33,118 bases of DNA from an uncultured Ruminococcus sp. (GTDB lineage Bacteria; Bacillota; Clostridia; Oscillospirales; Ruminococcaceae), in contig CAMWVV010000007.1 of NCBI GenBank assembly GCA_947177755.1, positions 1-33,118 of the forward strand, written 5' to 3'. Made by a program: the position numbers and the translations under genes. How positions within the stretch are numbered: position 1 is the stretch's first letter; each line of letters begins with the position of its first letter. The notes beneath the pieces were generated by a model. The model made no database searches and was not told the origin of the DNA. It saw only the letters and a list, made by a program, of their open reading frames with translations. Shown here in pieces: positions 5,869 through 23,952 of this stretch.

Positions 5869-6699
5869 TTAAGAACCTCTGTTACGTATTTTCAGGCTGA
5901 GAACCGATATTATCACGCACACAATATTTATAATCATGATAAATCCCCATGCTTTCAGAAGATTTTCTGAAGTACATTCATATGCCGGTTCGGTTTCAAG
6001 TCTCACCACTTCAGGAAATAAAAGGCTCATTTTAAGCGGTAAGTCCTCACTGTTCAAATCTCCTATACTTCCGAATGCGGACATTCCCCATTTGCTGAAA
6101 GTAATATCTGCAATTTTTTCCGCCCAGCCTTTCAGTTCAAAAAGTACACCGCTCATAACAAGCTGTAAAATAAGCACAAACGGCATTGCAGTCATTGCAA
6201 CGTTAGGAGTTGAAGCCACCGAAGAAATCATTATCCCCATTATATCCGAACCCCATACGACAAGAAAAACAGTAATGAAATATTCTATTATCGATTCCCC
6301 GAATATAATACCGTCAGACGGAAAATCAATGTAAACCATACATATTCCTATCAGAATAATACTCTGTATAAGGCATATAAGAAAATCAAAAATCACGTGT
6401 GACATTATGTATGCACTTATATGCAGACCCGAACGGTATTCGCTGGTAATAGTGTTATGTTCCTTACATATACGCTGAATTGAATTGAATACACCTATCC
6501 ATATTGCCGCAGAAGTAATCGCAAAAAATCCCGATTTTGTCGATTCATATGTTGAAAACATATCTTCACCGACAATCGAACATACAAGGAACGAAATAAC
6601 GCCTGCAATTATAATGAATTTCCAGTCTTTCTGATTCATAAAAAGTCTGCTGTTCTTTACCACATAAACGGGTATCTGTTTTACCATGGAAGTTTTCAT
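5869..6699 (-). CDS. ABC-2-type transporter permease
   Basis: 276 residues from the ATG at 6699, which has GGAGG eight bases upstream. A TTG two codons earlier overlaps the previous stop and is less well placed. Six hydrophobic segments are visible, including WKFIIIAGVISFLVCSIVG, HVIFDFLICLIQSIILIGI and, at the end, GFIMIINIVCVIISVLSL. The last ends in a short basic tail. It is the membrane half of the transporter whose ATPase is the preceding gene. The ABCG-like ATPase signature suggests export or a non-transport role at the membrane. The substrate is unknown. Confidence 0.88.
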   Translation of the reverse strand: MKTSMVKQIPVYVVKNSRLFMNQKDWKFIIIAGVISFLVCSIVGEDMFSTYESTKSGFFAITSAAIWIGVFNSIQRICKEHNTITSEYRSGLHISAYIMSHVIFDFLICLIQSIILIGICMVYIDFPSDGIIFGESIIEYFITVFLVVWGSDIMGIMISSVASTPNVAMTAMPFVLILQLVMSGVLFELKGWAEKIADITFSKWGMSAFGSIGDLNSEDLPLKMSLLFPEVVRLETEPAYECTSENLLKAWGFIMIINIVCVIISVLSLKIRNRGS

Positions 6700-12747: not shown

Positions 12748-14862
12748 TCAGGACTGTGTTGTACTCATCATCTGTATTTGCAGTGCGTCGGACGCTGTTA
12801 TACCGTCGCCTGTATTGTATACATCTGCATTGAATTTTCCTTTTGTTGTAAGCTTGTAATTATCGGGATTTGCAATTGACTGCATAATAAGTACAGCGTC
12901 TGCAATATTGACATCATCGTCATTGTTTGCGTTTCCTGAACGTTCTATATCAAGACTTAAAAGAACCTTGATATTATCTTCATAGTTTGCAGTTGTGGAA
13001 ATGGGTTCCGGAGTTTCACAGAGACTCTGGACATACTCATAATAAGAACCGTCAACGTCATCTATTTCATCAGCGTACTTTATTACATATAACTGCACTG
13101 CCGTGAGGTCGTATATGCTGGCACTGGTTCCTTCTCCGTCCAAATCATAGTTTTCGTTGATGTTGTTCCATGTTTCTGCCGGAAGTATGCTTTTTTCAGC
13201 TTTACTGCCCTTCAATTTGTCACTCCAGTAAATGTTTATATCGAAGTAGTCCATGTAGTCAACAACTCCATCCATATTTACATCGGGAGCAGGTCGGATA
13301 CCGTTTTCAACATCGGAACAGTATGAATCAAAGAACGGAGTAAATTCATTCATATTAAGCATATAATGAAAATCATTGATGTCATATGTCGGTCCTATAT
13401 TATCACTTACTTCGATGCCCATTTTTGAAGCAGCATTTATTACCAGTGAGGGAATACTATATGAAGATACATAGCCTTCAATATTCTCTTTGTAGTATTC
13501 TATCGTGAAATATTCCTGTTTTACTTCTATGTGATTTAAAATATAAGCTGCTACCGCCACCGACATAATAGGACCATAATAATTATGCGGAACAAGATGC
13601 TCTGAATAATAGAAAGAGAAATCCCAGCATTTTTGATATTCTTCTTCAGTAAGAATCTGCTTTATTACTTCGGTTTTCTTCTCTGTAAAGAATACGTCCA
13701 TACAGTAAATATCATCAACATCAAGCTGACCGTTTCCGTTAATATCGAGGTCTGCTGTACCGCTCTGATACAGTTCATCAATCAGATAATATTGAGCTTC
13801 CAGATATTCCACATGATAGAACATACGCATAGGGAAAACGTATGCCTGAATTTCCTTGTATTTTCCGAAATCGTCCTCAGTAGTAAGCGGTTCAATATCA
13901 GGGTCATAATATGCAGGATTGAGATATTCATATTTAATGTTTCCATCGACTATAAAGTACCTCATCAGATGTAATGTATCATCAAAGTCAACTGTTCCGT
14001 TGCCGTCATAGTCGGCTATGCTTTCGATACGCTGTACTATTTCAGGGTCAATATCATTCTCATAAGAATAGTATTCTGAACGGTAAGCGTCAAGCAGATA
14101 GCAGTCCATGATGTCAAATTCACCGTTGCCGTTGATGTCAACGTCCAGTTCTCCGCTTTCCATTTTAGCGAAAATTTCTTTTTCACCCTGCCAGTATCTT
14201 GACGGATTAACCTTAAAAGGTACGCCTGAAGCATTGCTTGTTGTGGGCATAGCAGAACTCATTATTGTAAGTGCCGATATAAAAGACATAAATTTTTTCA
14301 TATAATAACTCCCTTCGTCATCAATATTCTGCGGCGGACTTATAATCTCCGTCTCCGTCACAGTTAAGTCTGTTTGTGGTTCATATCTGATGGTTGTCTG
14401 GATTACTTCTTGTAAAGGTTGGGTTTGATAATCTGTTTTATTAATCGGAGAAGTCTGTGATAACGTGGTTGTAGTATAAACTGTACTGTCTGTAATTTCG
14501 GAAAATTCTGTTGTATATGAAGTTATAATGTTACTTTCGGTAATATTCGGAACTGTAGTTGTCACGGAAGTTACAGATGTATATTTTTCTGATTCTGTAA
14601 CAGAAGTCTGCAACGGCTTTTCAGTGCTTGTCTGCGTAACAGATTCGTTTTCCGTAACCATTTGAAAGTCATCTGAATAATTTTTGAATGCATTTTTTAA
14701 GTCATTATTTTTCCACACTCCGAAGCCTACAATAACAACAGCACATATTCCCGAAATCATAAGTGAGGTTCTTTTTATTATTGCTGTTCTTCTCCGTCTT
14801 TTTTCAAGAATTTCATCGCCTTTTCTGAATACTCTTTCTGTAATATCCTCATAGCTCTTCAT
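12748..14862 (-). CDS. Membrane protein of anti-sigma form fused in frame to a multi-dockerin secreted protein
   Basis: 704 residues from the ATG at 14862, which overlaps the sigma factor stop by 14 bases and has AGAGGGG upstream. Residues 1-31 are basic and cytoplasmic, and 33-50 are a membrane helix (SLMISGICAVVIVGFGVW). Residues about 70-180 are a Thr/Ser/Glu-rich stalk. At 188 a complete second signal peptide begins (MKKFMSFISALTIMSS, cleavage near TSNAS). After it come dockerin-type EF-hand loops starting at about 242, 284, 373, 527, 573, 644 and 680, of which 242/284, 527/573 and 644/680 are paired like dockerins. No glycosidase motif is seen. The sigma/membrane-protein pairing recalls SigI/RsgI of cellulosome-forming clostridia, where the outer part senses polysaccharide. 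An anti-sigma role is inferred only from order and topology. The chain may be one protein or two (see the internal start at 14299). Confidence 0.78.
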   Translation of the reverse strand: MKSYEDITERVFRKGDEILEKRRRRTAIIKRTSLMISGICAVVIVGFGVWKNNDLKNAFKNYSDDFQMVTENESVTQTSTEKPLQTSVTESEKYTSVTSVTTTVPNITESNIITSYTTEFSEITDSTVYTTTTLSQTSPINKTDYQTQPLQEVIQTTIRYEPQTDLTVTETEIISPPQNIDDEGSYYMKKFMSFISALTIMSSAMPTTSNASGVPFKVNPSRYWQGEKEIFAKMESGELDVDINGNGEFDIMDCYLLDAYRSEYYSYENDIDPEIVQRIESIADYDGNGTVDFDDTLHLMRYFIVDGNIKYEYLNPAYYDPDIEPLTTEDDFGKYKEIQAYVFPMRMFYHVEYLEAQYYLIDELYQSGTADLDINGNGQLDVDDIYCMDVFFTEKKTEVIKQILTEEEYQKCWDFSFYYSEHLVPHNYYGPIMSVAVAAYILNHIEVKQEYFTIEYYKENIEGYVSSYSIPSLVINAASKMGIEVSDNIGPTYDINDFHYMLNMNEFTPFFDSYCSDVENGIRPAPDVNMDGVVDYMDYFDINIYWSDKLKGSKAEKSILPAETWNNINENYDLDGEGTSASIYDLTAVQLYVIKYADEIDDVDGSYYEYVQSLCETPEPISTTANYEDNIKVLLSLDIERSGNANNDDDVNIADAVLIMQSIANPDNYKLTTKGKFNADVYNTGDGITASDALQIQMMSTTQS
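14299..14315 (-). other. Internal ribosome site and start codon before the embedded signal peptide
   Basis: On the minus strand, AAGGGAG (14309-14315) stands seven bases before an ATG (14299-14301) that opens a textbook signal peptide, in the same frame as the upstream membrane protein. Stops just before or overlapping this ATG exist in both other frames (a TGATGA, and an ATGA overlap), so a single-base indel would separate two normal genes. A product starting here would have 517 residues. Confidence 0.7.
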
Positions 14863-15403
14863 AGGTAAACCCCTCTCTTTCAAGCTCTGATTTAAGAGAT
14901 TTTTTAGCCCTGTAAAGTAAATATGTAATCTGACGATTGGTTTTGTGCATGATTTTTGCGGTTTGTGAAGTGTTGAATTCTTCAAAATATGTTAAATAAA
15001 GTACCTGACGGTAGTCCTGATTCAGCTTCTGCATTACCCTGTGAATGAAAATTTTCTGTTCATCTTTTATATAGTTCTGTTCAAGTTCTGTTTTATCTTC
15101 AAGGCTGTAGAAATCATCAATCGGAACAGAAACAAATTTTGAAGTTTTCCTGATATGGTCAATCGCTGTAAATCTTCCTATGGAGTAAAGCCACGTTTTG
15201 AATGAACTTTTTCCCGAAAATCTTGGCTTTCTGACATAAAGCTTTATAAATACTTCCTCCGCAATTTCCTCCGCATTACATATATTGTCAGTATAACTAT
15301 ATACATACATCACAAGCCCGTCTCTGTATTCACGGATTATCTCAGCAAGAGCATTTTTGTCACCTTCAAGAAAACGGTGGTAGCTACTTGCACCGTTATC
15401 CAT
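14849..15403 (-). CDS. ECF-type sigma factor (sigma-70 family)
   Basis: 184 residues. Region 2 spans about 15-80 (GLVMYVYSYTDNICNAEEIA for the core-binding helix, then FKTWLYSIGRFTAIDHIRK for -10 recognition). Region 4 spans about 118-175 (LNQDYRQVLYLTYFEEFN and an HTH in TAKIMHKTNRQITYLLYRAK). No region 1 or 3 is present, as in ECF factors. The stop overlaps the start of the membrane/dockerin gene, the usual arrangement with an anti-sigma factor. An ECF-type promoter (TGCAAC-N16-CGAC) lies just upstream, so it likely drives its own operon. Its regulon is not visible, but the setting beside xylanase genes points to cell-wall-degrading or cell-surface genes. Confidence 0.9.
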   Translation of the reverse strand: MDNGASSYHRFLEGDKNALAEIIREYRDGLVMYVYSYTDNICNAEEIAEEVFIKLYVRKPRFSGKSSFKTWLYSIGRFTAIDHIRKTSKFVSVPIDDFYSLEDKTELEQNYIKDEQKIFIHRVMQKLNQDYRQVLYLTYFEEFNTSQTAKIMHKTNRQITYLLYRAKKSLKSELEREGFTYEEL

Positions 15404-15614: not shown

Positions 15615-18600
15615 TCATGAAAAATACCAGTAATCAAAATCAACGTCTCCGCTGAACAAGAAACATAAATCAGTACTTCCGCTGAGCGAACTGCTGACAG
15701 GTACTTTTATTTCGGACATACCCGAAGGAATTTCCGCATATGCAACAGCCTCACCCTTTGCGTCACCTTTGCAGACCTTTATTACTGCACCATTTTTTGA
15801 TGATGCTTTTATTGTAAGAGTTTTTGCACCCTTTGAAAAGTCTGCACCGTTAACGGAAATCCAGCTTCCCTTTGTACCATGCACTGTAGTATCACCCAGA
15901 CCGTTTACAGAAATGTCTTTTGACTGATTTGACATGGTTTCAGCCTGTACTTTTGAATACGGATTGAGTTTCTTAAGCTGTGCGATTCCTGTCATAGTTC
16001 CTGTTACCTGATTCATTTTTTCACCGCTCATGGTGATTTTGTCAACCTGCGGACTTCTGTAATTGCCGTCGATTCCCATAGCCTTTTCAACGGGACGTGA
16101 GTGGTAGAACAGATAAAGCTGGTTATTGAGTTCAACAATTGAATGATGGTTATTGCCTGTCATTCCTGCAAAGAAATTTCCCTGATTCTTGAACAGTTCT
16201 CCGCCATATGTGTAAGGTCCGAGAGGATTATCCGCAACCATATATTCTATGCCTGCCGTAGAAAGTCCGTACTGATTTCCGCCTGTATTCCAGTTTGAAC
16301 AGTAAGTATAATAATATTTGTTGCCTATTTTGTTTATACCCGAATCTTCAAAGACATACGGAGCGTCAATTGTAGACGGTGTTCCGACAATACTTGTCAT
16401 ATCGTCACCGAGTTTTACAACTCTTGTTGTTGAAGGCATTGCTTGCTTACCCTCGGGAACTCCTCCGCCGAAACATAAATAACCTGTTCCGTCGTCGTCA
16501 ACAAAAACAGCAGGGTCAAAGAGCCACGGAATATTATTACAGTTCGGAACAGCTCTTGTTATAAGTTCATGACCGAGGGGGTCGCTCCACGGACCTGTAG
16601 GACTATCGGCAGTAAGCACGCAAACACCGTTTCCGCCGTTGCAGAAGTAAAGGAAGAATTTTTCCTTGCCGTTTATAGTTTTGTGTGCTGCACACGGAGC
16701 CCATGAAAGCGATGCCCATTTTGCCACGCCGTCTGAACCTGCTACATTTATAGCACCGTGGTCAGTCCAGTTAACCATATCGTCGGACGAAATACAGTTG
16801 ATTTTGTTTACTTTTCCGTAAGTGTTTTCGGTGACATTTCCGTTTGCATCATATTCAACAACATCATTTGTCATATACACATAAACCCTGCCATTGTACT
16901 CCATAACTCCAGGGTCTGCACCGAATCTCTGCGTATAAAGAGGATTGTTTTCACCTGATTTTTTGTAGCTTGCTGTCGGACTTACTAAAGAAAAGAGTTT
17001 TTCCATAGCGGCATTGTCAACAATTTTTTCAGCAACCGGAAATTCTTTTATCTGCCCGAGAATAAACTTCTGAATCAGAACAGCATCATTAACATTATAT
17101 TCACCGCTTTGGTCAACGTCTGCGGAAATCTTTTCTGACGATTCACTGAAACCGTTCACAAGTCCTTTTCTTGCCATTACCATATCAAATGAATTGATTA
17201 CGCCGTCTGAATTTATGTCACCGAGAATAATATTTTTTGATTCTCCTGCACCTAAAATTGAAGTTCTTGCAATTGCACCTATAACTTCGTCGATATAGAA
17301 ATTGCTTGTTGAATCGGCAGTTTCGATATAAATCTGCATATTTGTAGCACCATCGGGAATTTTATAGTTTTTGTTTGCAAGCTGTACCCATTCACCCTTT
17401 ATTGCTGTTGCCTCTGCAATGGTGCTGTAACGGGTATCGCCGTTTGAGTCGGTGTACTGTAGTTTGAGATAAAATTTATCTGTCGGTTCACCATCGTAGT
17501 ACATTACATTTGCACTGAAACTGTATTCACTGCCTGCCTCAAATGCTCTGCCGAGAGTTTTTGAAGCACCGTTCCATGCAGCAGTTCTGTCTTTTACGAG
17601 AAGTGATTCGTTGCCTACATATGCAGTACGTCCGCTTGTGAGAACTTCTCCCGAGCCTCTTATACCCCAGTCACAAGTACTTCCCTCAAAGCCGTCCGCA
17701 AAATACCAGCCGTAATCGTTGGGGGTTATTGGTGTTGATTCATCAGAAAGAGTAACAACAAACGTTGAAACGCTGTTTGCAGGAAGCTGAGCATAGAAAT
17801 TATCGCCGTCGAAATCCATATTAAGTGTAGGAGCAATATTTTCATTTGCGGAAGTTCTGTAACGGTCAACGTCCGAAATATTTTCATTGTCTATTCTGAA
17901 ATTCTGAGTATATTCTTTTTCACTCTTGTTTACCGCAACAATAGTGACCTGATTGTCATCGCCTTTATATGCAGAAACATAGACATCTTTTTCAGGCTGT
18001 TCTGTAGCGTCAACACGCACATCACCGGGACGTACATATTTTGAATACTGTGCCATGCAGTAGCCACGCTTGCTTATCTTGCCGTCCTCAGTCATAAGAC
18101 CATAACTTCTGCGGATATACCACCATGTATATGCACTCATATTGCCCACAACCATAGCATTGTGGATATTTTCCGCAACTTCTATAGCTTCGGGATATTT
18201 GTTAGCTGAATCGGCATCACTGTTAGGTACATAGACTTCTGTCATCCATATTTCCTTACCGCTGTTTTCGAGGTCAGGGAAGTCCATCCAATCTCTTGTA
18301 GTTCCGTACATATGAGTACCGAAAAGGTCACAGTTTGCCATAGCTTTTTCATTATTAAGTATTTTACGGTAGAATTTCTTTCCGCCGTCCTTGACCCATG
18401 AAGCATTTTCGGGAGCGTACTGGAAACTTTCAGGCGACATAAGTCTTGTGCTTGTTATCTTATCGCCATAGTTTGCGATAAAATCCGTTGTTTCGTCGGT
18501 TGACCAGTATGTCCACTCTTCAGCATAGTCAGGCTCATTCTGAACCGATATAGAGTAAAGGTCAACGCCGTTATCTTTCATATACTGTCCGAAATTGTTA

Positions 18601-19058
18601 AGATGTTCGGCATAAGCACCATAATTTGACTTTGGAATATGAAGTTTGCCATTGCTTCCGCCTGATTCTGCGAGATTTGCAGGTGGTTCCCACGGCGATG
18701 CAAAAACAGTAGCACCCATTTTTGTGGCAAACTGTGCTGTCGGGACAGCAAGTTTCCACTGCGAACTATCGGGATTTACAAACACACGGAGTATAGTAAG
18801 CCCGAGTTCATTGTCTCCGTTACCGAAAGCGGTCTGTCTTTGAGCATCAGACAAATCACCGCCCTTGTCTGCCGTCCATTCAGGGTGATTGATGCCTCCG
18901 AAACCACGTATTGTCTGATATTCCTTGTTAATGTCAACTACCACTTCACTGGCAGCTGCAACGTTTTTTTGTTCGGGCAGTGCCGATGTTAATGTAAACA
19001 TCATAGCAGACGATGTAAGCAAAGATAAAATTTTTTTTACTGATTTTTTGGTTTTCAT
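15615..19058 (-). CDS. Secreted GH30-CBM22-dockerin-GH43-CBM6 xylan-degrading enzyme
   Basis: 1147 residues with a signal peptide (about 1-36). GH30 spans about 38-437, with the acid/base E175 in SVQNEPDY and the nucleophile E274 in WMTEVYV. The sequence is like GH30_8 glucuronoxylanases, which cut beta-1,4-xylan next to glucuronic acid. CBM22 (about 447-600) binds xylan. A type-I dockerin (about 612-675; GDINSDGVINSFDM and ADVDQSGEYNVNDA loops) docks onto a scaffoldin cohesin. GH43 spans about 705-1030, with D715, D848 (WLFDPAV) and E904 (YVFEDSG) as the expected triad, and is probably an arabinofuranosidase or xylosidase. A CBM6-like module (about 1033-1147) ends the chain. The dockerin sits inside the protein, not at its end. 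The CBM22-dockerin block is 83% identical to that of the GH10 enzyme. A GGGAGG site precedes the ATG. Confidence 0.94.
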   Translation of the reverse strand: MKTKKSVKKILSLLTSSAMMFTLTSALPEQKNVAAASEVVVDINKEYQTIRGFGGINHPEWTADKGGDLSDAQRQTAFGNGDNELGLTILRVFVNPDSSQWKLAVPTAQFATKMGATVFASPWEPPANLAESGGSNGKLHIPKSNYGAYAEHLNNFGQYMKDNGVDLYSISVQNEPDYAEEWTYWSTDETTDFIANYGDKITSTRLMSPESFQYAPENASWVKDGGKKFYRKILNNEKAMANCDLFGTHMYGTTRDWMDFPDLENSGKEIWMTEVYVPNSDADSANKYPEAIEVAENIHNAMVVGNMSAYTWWYIRRSYGLMTEDGKISKRGYCMAQYSKYVRPGDVRVDATEQPEKDVYVSAYKGDDNQVTIVAVNKSEKEYTQNFRIDNENISDVDRYRTSANENIAPTLNMDFDGDNFYAQLPANSVSTFVVTLSDESTPITPNDYGWYFADGFEGSTCDWGIRGSGEVLTSGRTAYVGNESLLVKDRTAAWNGASKTLGRAFEAGSEYSFSANVMYYDGEPTDKFYLKLQYTDSNGDTRYSTIAEATAIKGEWVQLANKNYKIPDGATNMQIYIETADSTSNFYIDEVIGAIARTSILGAGESKNIILGDINSDGVINSFDMVMARKGLVNGFSESSEKISADVDQSGEYNVNDAVLIQKFILGQIKEFPVAEKIVDNAAMEKLFSLVSPTASYKKSGENNPLYTQRFGADPGVMEYNGRVYVYMTNDVVEYDANGNVTENTYGKVNKINCISSDDMVNWTDHGAINVAGSDGVAKWASLSWAPCAAHKTINGKEKFFLYFCNGGNGVCVLTADSPTGPWSDPLGHELITRAVPNCNNIPWLFDPAVFVDDDGTGYLCFGGGVPEGKQAMPSTTRVVKLGDDMTSIVGTPSTIDAPYVFEDSGINKIGNKYYYTYCSNWNTGGNQYGLSTAGIEYMVADNPLGPYTYGGELFKNQGNFFAGMTGNNHHSIVELNNQLYLFYHSRPVEKAMGIDGNYRSPQVDKITMSGEKMNQVTGTMTGIAQLKKLNPYSKVQAETMSNQSKDISVNGLGDTTVHGTKGSWISVNGADFSKGAKTLTIKASSKNGAVIKVCKGDAKGEAVAYAEIPSGMSEIKVPVSSSLSGSTDLCFLFSGDVDFDYWYFS
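17034..17723 (-). repeat. CBM22-dockerin block, copy 1 (in the GH30-GH43 gene)
   Basis: Encodes residues 446-675. It aligns without any gap with residues 566-795 of the GH10-CE1 enzyme (DNA 21457-22146). By hand count 190 of 230 residues are identical, and DNA identity is visibly high as well. Outside the block the two proteins are unrelated, so this is a duplicated module, moved or homogenised as a unit. Confidence 0.9.
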
Positions 19059-19101
19059 AATTACCTCCCATTATAAATATCGTTCATATAATATTAATAA
19101 T

Positions 19102-19163
19102 ATTCTAACATATATGACAATATTTGTATTGCACATTTGTCATTTAAATGGTATTTTTGTAAT
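19102..19163 (-). promoter_or_regulatory. Promoter and probable AraC-type activator sites of the GH30-GH43 gene
   Basis: Plus-strand half-sites TTTGTCAT (19136-19143) and TTTGTAAT (19156-19163) are 20 bases apart. The 21 bases at 19123-19143 differ by one base from 23912-23932 upstream of the GH10 gene. Reading on the minus strand, TAGAAT (19102-19107) stands 15 bases after this element as -10. The -35 position falls in the element and has no consensus, as in activator-dependent promoters. Confidence 0.72.
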
Positions 19164-19182
19164 GCAATATTTTAATATGAAG

Positions 19183-19211
19183 TTGAAATTTTTTCTGATG
19201 TGTAGTATAAT
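19183..19211 (+). promoter_or_regulatory. Promoter of the AraC-family regulator
   Basis: TTGAAA (19183-19188) and TATAAT (19206-19211) are 17 bases apart, 31 bases before the start codon. The paired half-sites for the divergent xylanase gene lie 20-60 bases upstream, so one bound regulator could affect both genes. Confidence 0.82.
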
Positions 19212-19242
19212 ATTAATGTATAATATTTTAAGGAGGTCAATT

Positions 19243-20466
19243 ATGGATTATGAAAAAATTTCTGATATAACACAGGAAGAACTTATTTACATAAGCAGAC
19301 AGTTTGCGAATATGTTCGGATTTCCCGTAAGACTTTACAACAAGAGTGAACTTATTTTCTTTCACTCTACCGCTAATCTGACAGCCGACCCCGTTTCACT
19401 TTGTCTTGACGAAATAATTCAAAAACAGGAACAAATCGACTATTATGTCTATGAAAGTACTTTTTATTATGGCATTGTCAACTGCGGACAGTATAAATTT
19501 GTAACTGGCCCTGTAAGCGAACTAAGACTATCAGACCATGAATTTAACAGGCTCGGATTTATTCTCGGAATAGAAAACAATGATATTCCGATTTTTACTG
19601 CGTCCATGAAAAGTCTTTCGGGAATACATCTTGACACGCTTATTCAGGCAATTATTCTCTATAATTTTTCCGTAAACAAAACAATGTATAACATATCGGA
19701 TATAAGAATAAAAAGTACAGAACAGAATAACATATCCACCGATATAAAGGAAAATGAGATTTCCGACATCGGCGAAAGGCTTTTTATGAATAACTCACGT
19801 TCATATGCTATTGAAAGAGATATGATTAAAAAGGTAATGAATGGTGACGTTGAAGGGCTGATTGACGGTGCAACCAAAATCCCGTCTGTAAGTTCGGGAA
19901 ATCTTGCACCGCACCTGCTCCGCCACAGCAAGAACTTTTTCATAAAACTTGAAACCATTATGGCACGTGCCGCAGTTGAAGCAGGTTTAGACGTTGATGA
20001 AATTTTTTCTATTGAAGAAATGTATATCAGGAAATGCGAGTCACTTGACAATATCGACCGCATTAAAAATCTCCAGTATCATATGATAGTTGACTATGCG
20101 GACAGAGTAAAAAAACTTAAACAATATAACGGACAAAATTCAAAAATGGTCACGGAGATTTCCGCATATATCCGCAGTCATATTTCCGAATCAATAAAAA
20201 CTTCCGATATTGCCGAACACTTCGGAAAGAGCAGGGGCGGAATAACAACGGAATTTAAAAAGCAGACTGGTATGAATCTTTCGGATTTTATCAAACTTAA
20301 AAAAATTCAGGAGGCTCAGGAACTCCTTTATGAAACAAATAAAAGTCTTGTACTGATAAGCGATTATCTCGGCTTTTCGTCGCAAAGCCATTTCACAAGG
20401 GTATTCAAGGAAATTACGGGAATTACTCCGAAAGAATACAGAGATAAAAATCATATCGGCAAATAA
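19243..20466 (+). CDS. AraC-family transcriptional regulator
   Basis: 407 residues from the ATG at 19243, preceded by AGGAGG (19231-19236). The reading frame extends further upstream but lacks a ribosome site there. The C-terminal AraC domain (about 299-407) has two HTH motifs, SIKTSDIAEHFGKSRGGITT and LISDYLGFSSQSHFTRVFKE, ending in GITPKEYR. The N-terminal 150 residues look like a soluble sensor (TGPVSELRLSDHEFNRLG), with no membrane segment and no recognised ligand site. It diverges from the GH30-GH43 gene and lies between the two xylanase genes. Both have matching paired half-sites near their promoters, so it probably activates them in response to a xylan breakdown product. The ligand is not known. 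Confidence 0.93.
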   Translation: MDYEKISDITQEELIYISRQFANMFGFPVRLYNKSELIFFHSTANLTADPVSLCLDEIIQKQEQIDYYVYESTFYYGIVNCGQYKFVTGPVSELRLSDHEFNRLGFILGIENNDIPIFTASMKSLSGIHLDTLIQAIILYNFSVNKTMYNISDIRIKSTEQNNISTDIKENEISDIGERLFMNNSRSYAIERDMIKKVMNGDVEGLIDGATKIPSVSSGNLAPHLLRHSKNFFIKLETIMARAAVEAGLDVDEIFSIEEMYIRKCESLDNIDRIKNLQYHMIVDYADRVKKLKQYNGQNSKMVTEISAYIRSHISESIKTSDIAEHFGKSRGGITTEFKKQTGMNLSDFIKLKKIQEAQELLYETNKSLVLISDYLGFSSQSHFTRVFKEITGITPKEYRDKNHIGK

Positions 20467-20469
20467 AAA

Positions 20470-20497
20470 AACCGTGGGTATTTCACCACAGTTTTAT
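20470..20497 (+). terminator. Terminator after the AraC-family gene
   Basis: AACCGTGG (20470-20477) pairs with CCACAGTT (20486-20493) through an 8-base loop with one G-U pair, followed by a T-rich tail. An A run precedes it. A weaker ACTGATT/AATCAGT hairpin between 20,549 and 20,585 may serve the convergent GH10-CE1 gene. Confidence 0.7.
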
Positions 20498-20601
20498 TAT
20501 GATTGTCACCATAAAAGGAACAATCCTCCATAAAATTATTTATTAAACGACTGATTTTCTTTTTGTGCAGATAAGTCAATCAGTAGATTTAATTTTTTAA
20601 C

Positions 20602-23600
20602 TTATGCTTTGAAAACGGCTCTTACAAAGTTGTAAATGTGAGCGTGAATGCTGTTATCGCCATGATAACCGCCGTTTACATAATGCCATATATGCGGAAC
20701 GTTGTTTTTAGCAAAATTATTATGATAATTTTCAGGATTTGAATAAACGATAGTGTCATTGCTTCCTGCTGTAATAAAGAGGAGAGAGGGAGCTTCCTTT
20801 TCAGAATCCCACTTGAAACTTCCCGTCACACCAGGAGCAGGGCATATTGCACCCACATAGCCGAAAAGGTCAGCACGCTGCATACCTATGAGGAGAGATT
20901 CTCTGCCACCCATTGAAAAACCCGTTATTGCGGTGTTTTCTCTTCCTGTTTTCACACTGTATGTGCTTTCAATATGAGGCATAAGGTCTTTTGTAAGGTC
21001 ATTTATAAAATTATCATATGCGGCATTGTTTTCGTCGTCCATAGCCGAACAGTTTTCCTGTGTTGCACTTGAATAAACATAAGGGAATACAACTATCATA
21101 TCTTCCGCTTCACCCTCGGCGATAGCGTTTCCGATAATCTGACGTGTATACATAGTATCGTTGCCTTTTATAATCATTCTGTCCTGATTTTCCCAGTAAC
21201 CGTGAAGAACGTAAAGAACAGGATATTTTTTGTTTTCGTTATAGTTGGCAGGCAGAAGAATATTATAAGGTTTATTGCGGTTGCAGGTTGTTGAATAGTA
21301 TGTGCCTGATTTTACCGTACCATACTGAACACCTGCTTTTTCCTGTTTTGAATCTGCTGTTTCAAATTCGGAAACTTTTGCCTGTACTGTCGGTGTATAT
21401 TCGGACATTGTAATCATATCTTTAGAAGAAGATGACGGAGGAGTTACAGACTGAGATACGGGAAATTCTTTTATCTGTCCGAGAATGAATTTCTGAATCA
21501 GAACAGCGTCATTTATATTATATTCACCGTTCTGGTCAACGTCTGCGGAAAGTTTTTCTGCCGAATCGCTGAAACCGTTTATAAGACCGTTTCTTGCAAG
21601 AACCATGTCAAAAGAATTGATTGCACCGTCCGAGTTTATGTCGCCGAGAGTAACATTTTTGGATTCACCAGCACCGAGAATTGTAGTTCCTGCAACTGCA
21701 CCTATAACTTCGTCGATATAGAAATTGTTTGTTGTTTCTGCTGTTTCAACGTATATCTGCATATTTGAAGCATCAGACGGAATTTTGTAATTCTTGTTTG
21801 CAAGCTGTACCCATTCGCCTTTTATTGCTGTGGCTTCTGCGATAGTGTCATACTGTGTTTCACCGCTTGCATCAGTATACTGAAGTTTGAGATAGAATTT
21901 ATCCGTTGCATCGCCGTCAAAGTACATTACATTTGCACTGAAACTATATTCATTTCCTGCAACAAACGCTCTGTTAAGAGCCTTTGAAGCACCGTTCCAT
22001 GCGTTTGTCCTGTCCTTGACAAGAAGTGATTCGTCACCTACGTATGCAGTTCTTCCACTTGTGAGAATTTCTCCTGCACCTCTTGAAGTCCAGTCACAAG
22101 TACTGCCCTCAAAGCCGTCCGCAAAGTACCAGCCGTATGCATTCGGTTCAATGGGCTTGACTTCTCCGCCGCCCTGATAATTACTTCCGTCGCCCCACTC
22201 GGACTGCGGAATCATTGAAGTAAGCGTTGTATATGCAGGCTTAGGCTGATTATTTTTATCGTAAAGAAGTGCATCACTGCCCGCTTTCAGCCATGAATTA
22301 GCGTCGTTAGGTCCCCATATTGCAACAAGCGTTACCTTGCCGTTGTATTTTCCGCTTGTGTTCACGTCCATAGCGTGCTTGAAAATTGCCTTGTACTTGT
22401 CTGCCTGGTCCTGAAGTGAATAGATAACATTACCATTACTGTCTGTAAGAGCTATATCAAGTTCTGTAACCTGAACGTCACAGCCGATTGAAAGATATTT
22501 GTCCATAGCCTCTAAATAAGAGTCAGTGCCTGCAAATCCAGTGGCATTTGCAGGAACGTGCGACTGCATTCCAACGCCGTCGAGCAATCCCTTTTCGTAA
22601 AGAGATTTACACATATTGTATATGGTATCTCTCTTATGGTCCCAGTATTCGTTGTAGTCGTTGTAATAGAGGTCACAGCCTTCGGGAGCGTACCTTCTTG
22701 CATAAGTGAAAGCCTTTTCAACAAAGCTGTTGTCTCCGTAAACCTGTACCCAGCCAGATTTACCACCCTGTCCCTGTACATTATTGTCACCGGGTTCTCT
22801 TGCTCCTCCAAAATTAGCTGTTCTGTTTGAGTCGTCACTTATACATTCGTTGGCAACGTCATAGGCATATAAATTAAGTTCAGGGTACTGAGTTTCAATC
22901 GCATTGAACATATTTTTAATATAGCTTTCCATACGCTTATCCATAGTAGCAGAATCAACCCAGTTGCCGTTAGCATCAAAATTTTCTTTGAAAAACCATA
23001 CAGGTGTCTGACTGTGCCACACAAAAGTATGACCTCTAATAGCTATATTGTTCTGCACACAGAAATCCATTATTGCTGCTGCACTATTGAGTGAAACACC
23101 AATATTTGTACCGCTGCACTGTGACTGTACAAGAGTAGCATCGGGCTTCATTTCGTTCTCGCACTCAATGCTGTTGAAATCCTTAATCACGTTTGCGGTA
23201 ATGGCAGAATTTTTTACAGTTCCGCCATTAAGGATATTACCTACTCTGAAATAGTCTGCAAATTCGTCCTTAAGACCCTTTTCTCCTGCCGCATATGCTG
23301 AAAGACCTTTTTTTGAAGTGATTTTAACGTTGTCAAAGCTGAAATCATTTGTACTTTCTGTTGTGAGAGTAAGCCGAAACTCATAGCTGTTTGCAGGTGC
23401 TTTATAATCTGCGGAAAGTTCAGTCCACTGTCCTGCTTTTACCTTTTTTTCGGCAAGTTCAACAACCGTTTCAACACCTGTTTCCTCATCTATACACAAT
23501 AAATTCAGACGGAATTTTTCATCTGATTCGCTGTAAACCTGAACACTGTAATTATATTCAACCGCACCCGAAAGATAAAATCCCTTTGAAGAACTTGCAC

Positions 23601-23841
23601 CGTCATTTACAGAAGTACGTCCTGAAACGTTCATACCTCTCGAACCGTTGTAACCTTTACCATTTTCGGCTGTAAGCCTGACTGTATCGCTGTTGCCGTA
23701 CCAGCCGTCATAATTCACTTCAAAATCATTGCTGACCTGTTCGCTTGCAAATGCTCTTTCTGCAACCGTCGGCATATATGAAGCTATTCCTGCACTGCAT
23801 ATCAATGCTGTAATACCAGACGTAATTTTTTTTAAACGCAT
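20602..23841 (-). CDS. Secreted CBM22-GH10-CBM22-dockerin-CE1 xylanase/feruloyl esterase
   Basis: 1079 residues with a signal peptide (about 1-33). An N-terminal CBM22 spans about 39-178. The GH10 endo-beta-1,4-xylanase follows (about 188-545), with acid/base E332 in DVANECISDD and nucleophile E460 in VTELDIAL. A second CBM22 (about 567-720) and a type-I dockerin (about 732-795; GDINSDGAINSFDM and ADVDQNGEYNINDA) come next. A Ser/Pro linker leads to a CE1 esterase (about 845-1079) with nucleophile S976 in GFSMGG, D1029 in GSNDT and H1060 in GGYHG, as in the feruloyl esterase of XynZ. It cuts the xylan backbone and releases ferulic acid bound to arabinose. The start has AGGAGGGG upstream. The promoter resembles that of the GH30-GH43 gene. 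Confidence 0.95.
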   Translation of the reverse strand: MRLKKITSGITALICSAGIASYMPTVAERAFASEQVSNDFEVNYDGWYGNSDTVRLTAENGKGYNGSRGMNVSGRTSVNDGASSSKGFYLSGAVEYNYSVQVYSESDEKFRLNLLCIDEETGVETVVELAEKKVKAGQWTELSADYKAPANSYEFRLTLTTESTNDFSFDNVKITSKKGLSAYAAGEKGLKDEFADYFRVGNILNGGTVKNSAITANVIKDFNSIECENEMKPDATLVQSQCSGTNIGVSLNSAAAIMDFCVQNNIAIRGHTFVWHSQTPVWFFKENFDANGNWVDSATMDKRMESYIKNMFNAIETQYPELNLYAYDVANECISDDSNRTANFGGAREPGDNNVQGQGGKSGWVQVYGDNSFVEKAFTYARRYAPEGCDLYYNDYNEYWDHKRDTIYNMCKSLYEKGLLDGVGMQSHVPANATGFAGTDSYLEAMDKYLSIGCDVQVTELDIALTDSNGNVIYSLQDQADKYKAIFKHAMDVNTSGKYNGKVTLVAIWGPNDANSWLKAGSDALLYDKNNQPKPAYTTLTSMIPQSEWGDGSNYQGGGEVKPIEPNAYGWYFADGFEGSTCDWTSRGAGEILTSGRTAYVGDESLLVKDRTNAWNGASKALNRAFVAGNEYSFSANVMYFDGDATDKFYLKLQYTDASGETQYDTIAEATAIKGEWVQLANKNYKIPSDASNMQIYVETAETTNNFYIDEVIGAVAGTTILGAGESKNVTLGDINSDGAINSFDMVLARNGLINGFSDSAEKLSADVDQNGEYNINDAVLIQKFILGQIKEFPVSQSVTPPSSSSKDMITMSEYTPTVQAKVSEFETADSKQEKAGVQYGTVKSGTYYSTTCNRNKPYNILLPANYNENKKYPVLYVLHGYWENQDRMIIKGNDTMYTRQIIGNAIAEGEAEDMIVVFPYVYSSATQENCSAMDDENNAAYDNFINDLTKDLMPHIESTYSVKTGRENTAITGFSMGGRESLLIGMQRADLFGYVGAICPAPGVTGSFKWDSEKEAPSLLFITAGSNDTIVYSNPENYHNNFAKNNVPHIWHYVNGGYHGDNSIHAHIYNFVRAVFKA
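21457..22146 (-). repeat. CBM22-dockerin block, copy 2 (in the GH10-CE1 gene)
   Basis: Encodes residues 566-795, the partner of the block at 17034-17723. Both begin just before the YGWYFADGFEGS segment and end at KEFPV after the dockerin. The abrupt loss of similarity at both edges marks them as one exchangeable cassette. Confidence 0.9.
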
Positions 23842-23890
23842 TTAAAAACCCCTCCTGTTAATATAAGAATTTCGTGTTTAACTATTGCTA

Positions 23891-23952
23891 ATTCTATCAT
23901 ATTCTTATAATTTTGTATTGCACTTTTGTCATGTAATTTACATATTTGTCAT
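23891..23952 (-). promoter_or_regulatory. Promoter and probable AraC-type activator sites of the GH10-CE1 gene
   Basis: Plus-strand half-sites TTTGTCAT at 23925-23932 and 23945-23952 are 20 bases apart. The adjoining TTTGTATTGCAC (23912-23923) is identical to that at 19123-19134. On the minus strand, TAGAAT (23891-23896) follows the element by exactly 15 bases, as at the GH30-GH43 promoter. The leader to the ATG is about 43 bases. Confidence 0.72.

Follow-up and report, generated by a model that had tools for sequence, protein, structure and literature searches.

A predicted local activator of the AraC family for two Ruminococcus xylanase promoters

The window, a stretch of 33,118 nucleotides from contig CAMWVV010000007.1 of an uncultured Ruminococcus sp. 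(assembly GCA_947177755.1), carries two dockerin-bearing xylanase genes with an AraC-family regulator gene between them (Table 1). Across species, the C-terminal catalytic parts GH43 and CE1 are swapped between the GH10 and GH30 genes, as seen in both window genes and in loci L135, L138, L139, L101 and L170, and this exchange apparently runs through a highly similar CBM-dockerin stretch. Elsewhere in the window, the minus strand carries genes for a probable transposase and AAA protein, putatively assigned from the translations only to a Mu-like mobile element, at the contig end (2-2752). It also encodes a sigma-70-type (ECF-like) factor whose gene overlaps that of a probable membrane protein with dockerin-type repeats (12748-15403). 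The latter two resemble a pair of sigma and anti-sigma factor with a cellulosomal sensor; they are also present in genome G118 (L136:11878-14656), adjoining a GH98 gene that bears a third copy of the promoter module described below.

Table 1. Features of the two xylanase promoters and of the regulator in the window, and positions of the alternative module B in related loci.
Feature	Position	Strand	Basis
GH30-CBM-dockerin-GH43-CBM6 gene, 1147 aa (target 1)	15615..19058	-	Pfam scan
Extended -10 TGTTAGAAT, target 1; -35 box not recognisable	19102..19110	-	sequence, kept in relatives
Proximal half-site ATGACAAATGTGCAATACAAA, target 1, over -35 region	19123..19143	-	sequence comparison, profile
Distal half-site ATTACAAAAATACCAT, target 1, 20 bp farther upstream	19148..19163	-	sequence comparison
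Sigma-A-type promoter of the regulator gene, TTGAAA-N17-TATAAT	19183..19211	+	conserved in relatives
AraC-family regulator, 407 aa, own N-terminal domain and C-terminal double HTH	19243..20466	+	Pfam, NCBIfam, AlphaFold
CBM-GH10-CBM-dockerin-CE1 (esterase) gene, 1079 aa (target 2)	20602..23841	-	Pfam scan
Extended -10 TGATAGAAT, target 2	23891..23899	-	sequence
Proximal half-site ATGACAAAAGTGCAATACAAA, target 2, over -35 region	23912..23932	-	sequence comparison, profile
Distal half-site ATGACAAATATGTAAA, target 2, 20 bp farther upstream	23937..23952	-	sequence comparison
Module B upstream of GH10	L149, L150, L154, L156, L158, L160, L162, L167, L168		
Module B upstream of GH30	L170 about 6009-6072		
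PBP1-AraC regulator neighbouring module B	L170:10241-12448, L171:2346-4553		

The regions upstream of the two xylanase genes share a module of 62 bp, and every element that a preliminary description had assigned to them was found in its place. The module consists of two bipartite half-sites TKACAAA-n-RTGCAAT with a 20-bp period, followed 15 bp on the gene side by an extended -10 element (TGnTAGAAT); in gene orientation, the promoters read ATTACAAAAATACCATTTAAATGACAAATGTGCAATACAAA-N15-TAGAAT (GH30) and ATGACAAATATGTAAATTACATGACAAAAGTGCAATACAAA-N15-TAGAAT (GH10). The second half-sites lie exactly 20 bp away, as had been described (TTTGTAAT at 19156-19163 and TTTGTCAT at 23945-23952), with the proximal TTTGTCAT at 19136-19143 and 23925-23932. 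TAGAAT, which appears as ATTCTA on the forward strand (19102-19107 and 23891-23896), is located 15 bp on the gene side of the module in both regions and on the strand opposite to TTTGTCAT. The sequence TTTGTATTGCAC is present as reported (19123-19134 and 23912-23923), but it is not a separate element: since the half-site is bipartite, it covers the inner half of the proximal site together with the -35 region. Within the respective window modules, the two half-site copies agree at 11 of 18 and 12 of 18 positions.

The ungapped comparison of 49 bases does give the 38 identities counted previously, compared to a best score of 34 and a mean of 28.3 in 2000 shuffles of both intergenic regions with dinucleotides preserved. 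The DNA between module and start codon is dissimilar, again as described, with 16 of 40 identities in the in-register gene-side flank (including the six TAGAAT matches) and 12 of 40 in the flank beyond the module, both at background level. Aligning 19 sites, drawn from the window and 11 relatives, revealed a 20-bp repeat kept in nearly all of them, a distal copy that is looser than the proximal one, an extended -10 element (TGnTAgAAT) at nearly all sites, and no recognisable -35 box at these module promoters. The distance from the ACAAA end to the -10 hexamer is 15 bp at all sites except one (16 bp), and this spacing is kept although the spacer sequence differs among sites. In the relatives, intergenic conservation is 0.90 in the module columns versus 0.75 elsewhere. 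Transcription starts are predicted near 19094 and 23883, and past the start point there is a conserved leader, GAACGWTATTTTAACAGGAGG (window 19059-19095; L004, L006, L007, L010 and L011), and the leaders of several GH10 genes are similar to it (L004, L005, L010). A candidate catabolite-repression (cre) site in the shared leader, GAACGWTATTTTAA, was dropped, as it misses three consensus positions when judged by eye. L004 (JAMPEF010000003.1) is titled Alistipes senegalensis and appears to be a mislabelled MAG, with Ruminococcus-type sequence on a contig of G142 from the same genus.

In the host assembly, the module was found at the two window promoters only. A search for ATGACAAANGTGCAATACAAA with up to three mismatches gave two matches, both of them the window modules, a count that refers to the 2.60 Mb assembled (approximately 93% complete). 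The sequence-only profile R1, built on the sites of 12 relatives with the window left out, detected the window sites with 56.9 bits (E=4.5e-15) and 52.7 bits (E=9.9e-14), and the third-best match reached 16.6 bits (E=0.018) within an open reading frame. Thus, neither search found the random genome-wide occurrence that had been named as evidence against a regulatory site. The further xylan-degrading or dockerin genes expected behind the module were found in two relatives, G142 and G118, and not in the host assembly.

The regulator has the C-terminal double HTH of the AraC/XylS family (HTH_18, 67.6 bits, 1.2e-18, cut-off 33.6; HTH_AraC, 57.2 bits), and the Pfam scan of its 407 residues matched only the HTH, with no N-terminal domain and no REC domain. 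The best full-length NCBIfam family is TIGR04094 (residues 23-400, E=4.8e-40), although its 137.7 bits are below the curated cut-off of 200 bits. The AlphaFold model is of fair quality (pLDDT 72.5, pTM 0.45), its N-terminal alpha/beta domain being modelled with confidence, and Foldseek matches in the PDB were limited to the AraC-type HTH domain, with none for the N-terminal domain. Among regulators sharing 57-94% overall identity, the HTH recognition helices are 77-100% identical. The promoter of the regulator gene is consensus-like and conserved in relatives, and autoregulation is possible because the shared operator lies upstream of this gene.

A link between regulator and module is supported by 125 Ruminococcus genomes, in which R1 sites were accepted below 1e-6. 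The regulator is encoded in 12 of these genomes (A genomes), 11 of which also carry the module, compared to none of the other 113 (Fisher test, 6e-15 if the genomes were independent, though they share ancestry). In the exception, G051, no module was seen, but the regulator lies at a contig end. G052 has no regulator and shows a degraded module before a short GH10 remnant (L102). The module is kept in loci so rearranged that the regulator lies immediately upstream of GH10 (L012, L013, L101, L137) and even with regulators of 57% identity. At L009 and L003, the GH30-side module is retained and no GH30 gene was found, L003 stopping at a contig edge. In G039, the GH10 gene and its module are on a separate contig (L099/L172, G039:C53), and a relic of the module and of the gene start lies beside the regulator (L100 end, G039:C9). 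Third R1 sites unlinked to the regulator precede a GH10-GH43 xylanase gene in G142 and a GH98-CBM-dockerin gene in G118; each of these genomes has a single regulator copy, on a contig other than that of the third site. A GH98 enzyme of Bacteroides ovatus is an endo-xylanase acting on complex xylan (PMC4491172).

GH10 homologues are present in 115 of the 125 genomes, and upstream of the GH10 orthologues in 18 of the best regulator-less genomes R1 at full sensitivity gave no more than 11.7 bits. Weak R1 matches in regulator-less loci were rejected, as they fall on the reverse strand of what look like ordinary promoters, TATTGCATTTTTGT...TATAAT (L103, L105, L110, L111), on terminator-like DNA (L112) or within a coding frame (L107). 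The first four loci show a recurrent promoter form of the genus, TATTGCATnTTTGTnA...TGnTATAAT with a -35 like TTGCAT, which when reverse-complemented matches part of the half-site.

Co-occurrence, conservation, the unlinked sites and the absence of the module from regulator-less GH10 orthologues support the earlier assignment of the module to this regulator, and the neighbouring regulator almost certainly reads the common promoter element of both genes. The host genome has six AraC-type matches, and one of the five others might be the true reader of the module; this is very improbable, as AraC-type relatives occur in nearly all searched genomes and the module only alongside this regulator. The likeness could also reflect duplicated promoter DNA from recent common descent of related genes with no regulator binding, given that a highly identical CBM-dockerin stretch occurs in both target genes, which swap parts between species. 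This explanation has the least to recommend it, since the DNA between module and start codon is dissimilar, conservation is focused on the half-sites and the -10 element, the unrelated GH98 gene bears a site, and GH10 orthologues without the regulator have no module.

Direct-repeat sites overlapping the -35 region are typical of class II activators, and comparison of the sites confirmed the direct repeats two helical turns apart over a missing -35 box that the preliminary description had noted. We propose, with a probability of roughly 0.78 judged from sequence, a local two-promoter regulon in which the neighbouring regulator binds the tandem half-sites and activates the GH30-GH43 and GH10-CE1 genes on a xylan-derived ligand. 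The regulator would occupy both bipartite half-sites before each gene, with the proximal one in the place of the missing -35 box and adjoining the extended -10 element. With this half-site in place of the -35 box and an extended -10 beside it, sigma-A/RNA polymerase is the most likely contact of the bound regulator, and the geometry suggests activation of both xylanase genes. The trigger is presumably a xylan-derived ligand meeting the N-terminal domain. The same neighbour-bound module might instead act in repression, or switch transcription on and off in the manner of AraC itself, because the sites overlap the core promoter and extended -10 promoters can work without an activator. We consider this unlikely, as every promoter lacks a recognisable -35 box and has a half-site there, the usual layout of class II activation, and the regulator has its own consensus-like promoter. 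Overall, there is good support for reading the regulator as a local activator of the AraC family that acts on both xylanase promoters, and the circuit is small, local and of a familiar type.

Most relatives drive the equivalent genes by a different element and probably also by a different regulator. In many regulator-less genomes, GH10 is preceded by another module, TCTTCATTTTTTCCACCAAATCTGCAAATTGTGGGTTGT...TATAAT (module B), which is also a direct repeat with a 20-bp period (consensus TCTKCAwwTTkT). Its profile R2 matched 99 of the 125 genomes and only one of the 12 A genomes, weakly (G118, 3.2e-5), giving 4e-8 in a Fisher test on genomes that share ancestry. According to coordinate comparison, GH10 adjoins in about 20 of these genomes, mostly divergently, a gene whose 734-aa product combines a periplasmic-binding-like domain with an AraC HTH (PBP1-AraC), and we infer that this protein reads module B. 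Among the 12 A genomes, ten gave no match to it below 1e-60, and G100 and G151 have only distant homologues. In a tree of GH10 catalytic domains, A and non-A labels are intermixed, and well-supported branches force at least four changes; since GH10 genes are mosaic, the tree traces genes and does not count species-level switches. Regulator replacement between species is a known phenomenon. It is about as probable as not that orthologous xylanase promoters in this genus have swapped the whole control unit, probably repeatedly, with regulator A and module A in a minority of species and module B in most of the rest, there probably with the PBP1-AraC activator B; the two units would be mutually exclusive at the same place upstream of the -10. 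The complementary A/B pattern at these promoters is clean and worth follow-up, and it is more interesting than the local circuit: such an exchange would represent a natural experiment on the replacement of fibre-degradation control between species.

A full-text literature search revealed, for the cellulosomal xylanases of Ruminococcus, no regulator of AraC type whose operator is defined. The outcome here is one regulator, a predicted operator of 62 bp and two to three targets, a prediction amenable to testing in vitro. Class II regulators of the AraC/XylS family (AraC at I1-I2 of pBAD, XylS, MelR, RhaS) bind tandem two-box half-sites spaced by roughly two turns of the helix, with the proximal site covering the -35 region. 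The window system resembles them in its tandem two-box direct repeats, the position of the proximal site and the C-terminal double HTH, but it differs in the 20-bp period, the Firmicute sigma-A-type promoter with an extended -10, and an N-terminal domain that matched nothing in Pfam or the PDB.

Like members of TIGR04094 ('adjacent_YSIRK'), including EbrB from Enterococcus faecium, for which no obvious binding site was found (PMC3669262), the regulator adjoins genes for secreted or surface proteins that are probably under its control. In contrast to that family, its targets are dockerin enzymes whose N-termini (MKTKKSVKKILSLLTSSAMM, MRLKKITSGITALICSAGIA), read by eye, have no YSIRK-type signal, and its score is below the family cut-off. 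In Clostridium cellulolyticum, XydS/XydR controls dockerin-bearing hemicellulase genes through an AraC-type DNA-binding domain, with repeats shared by two targets (PMC3572039). The regulator described here is likewise AraC-type, is predicted to control dockerin hemicellulase genes and has repeats common to two targets, whereas XydR belongs to the two-component response regulators and has a REC domain, and the half-site defined here has no defined counterpart there. The XynR/XylR xylan regulons of Caldicellulosiruptor were predicted by the same comparative logic, but those regulons are larger and XynR is a LacI-type protein (PMC8579813).
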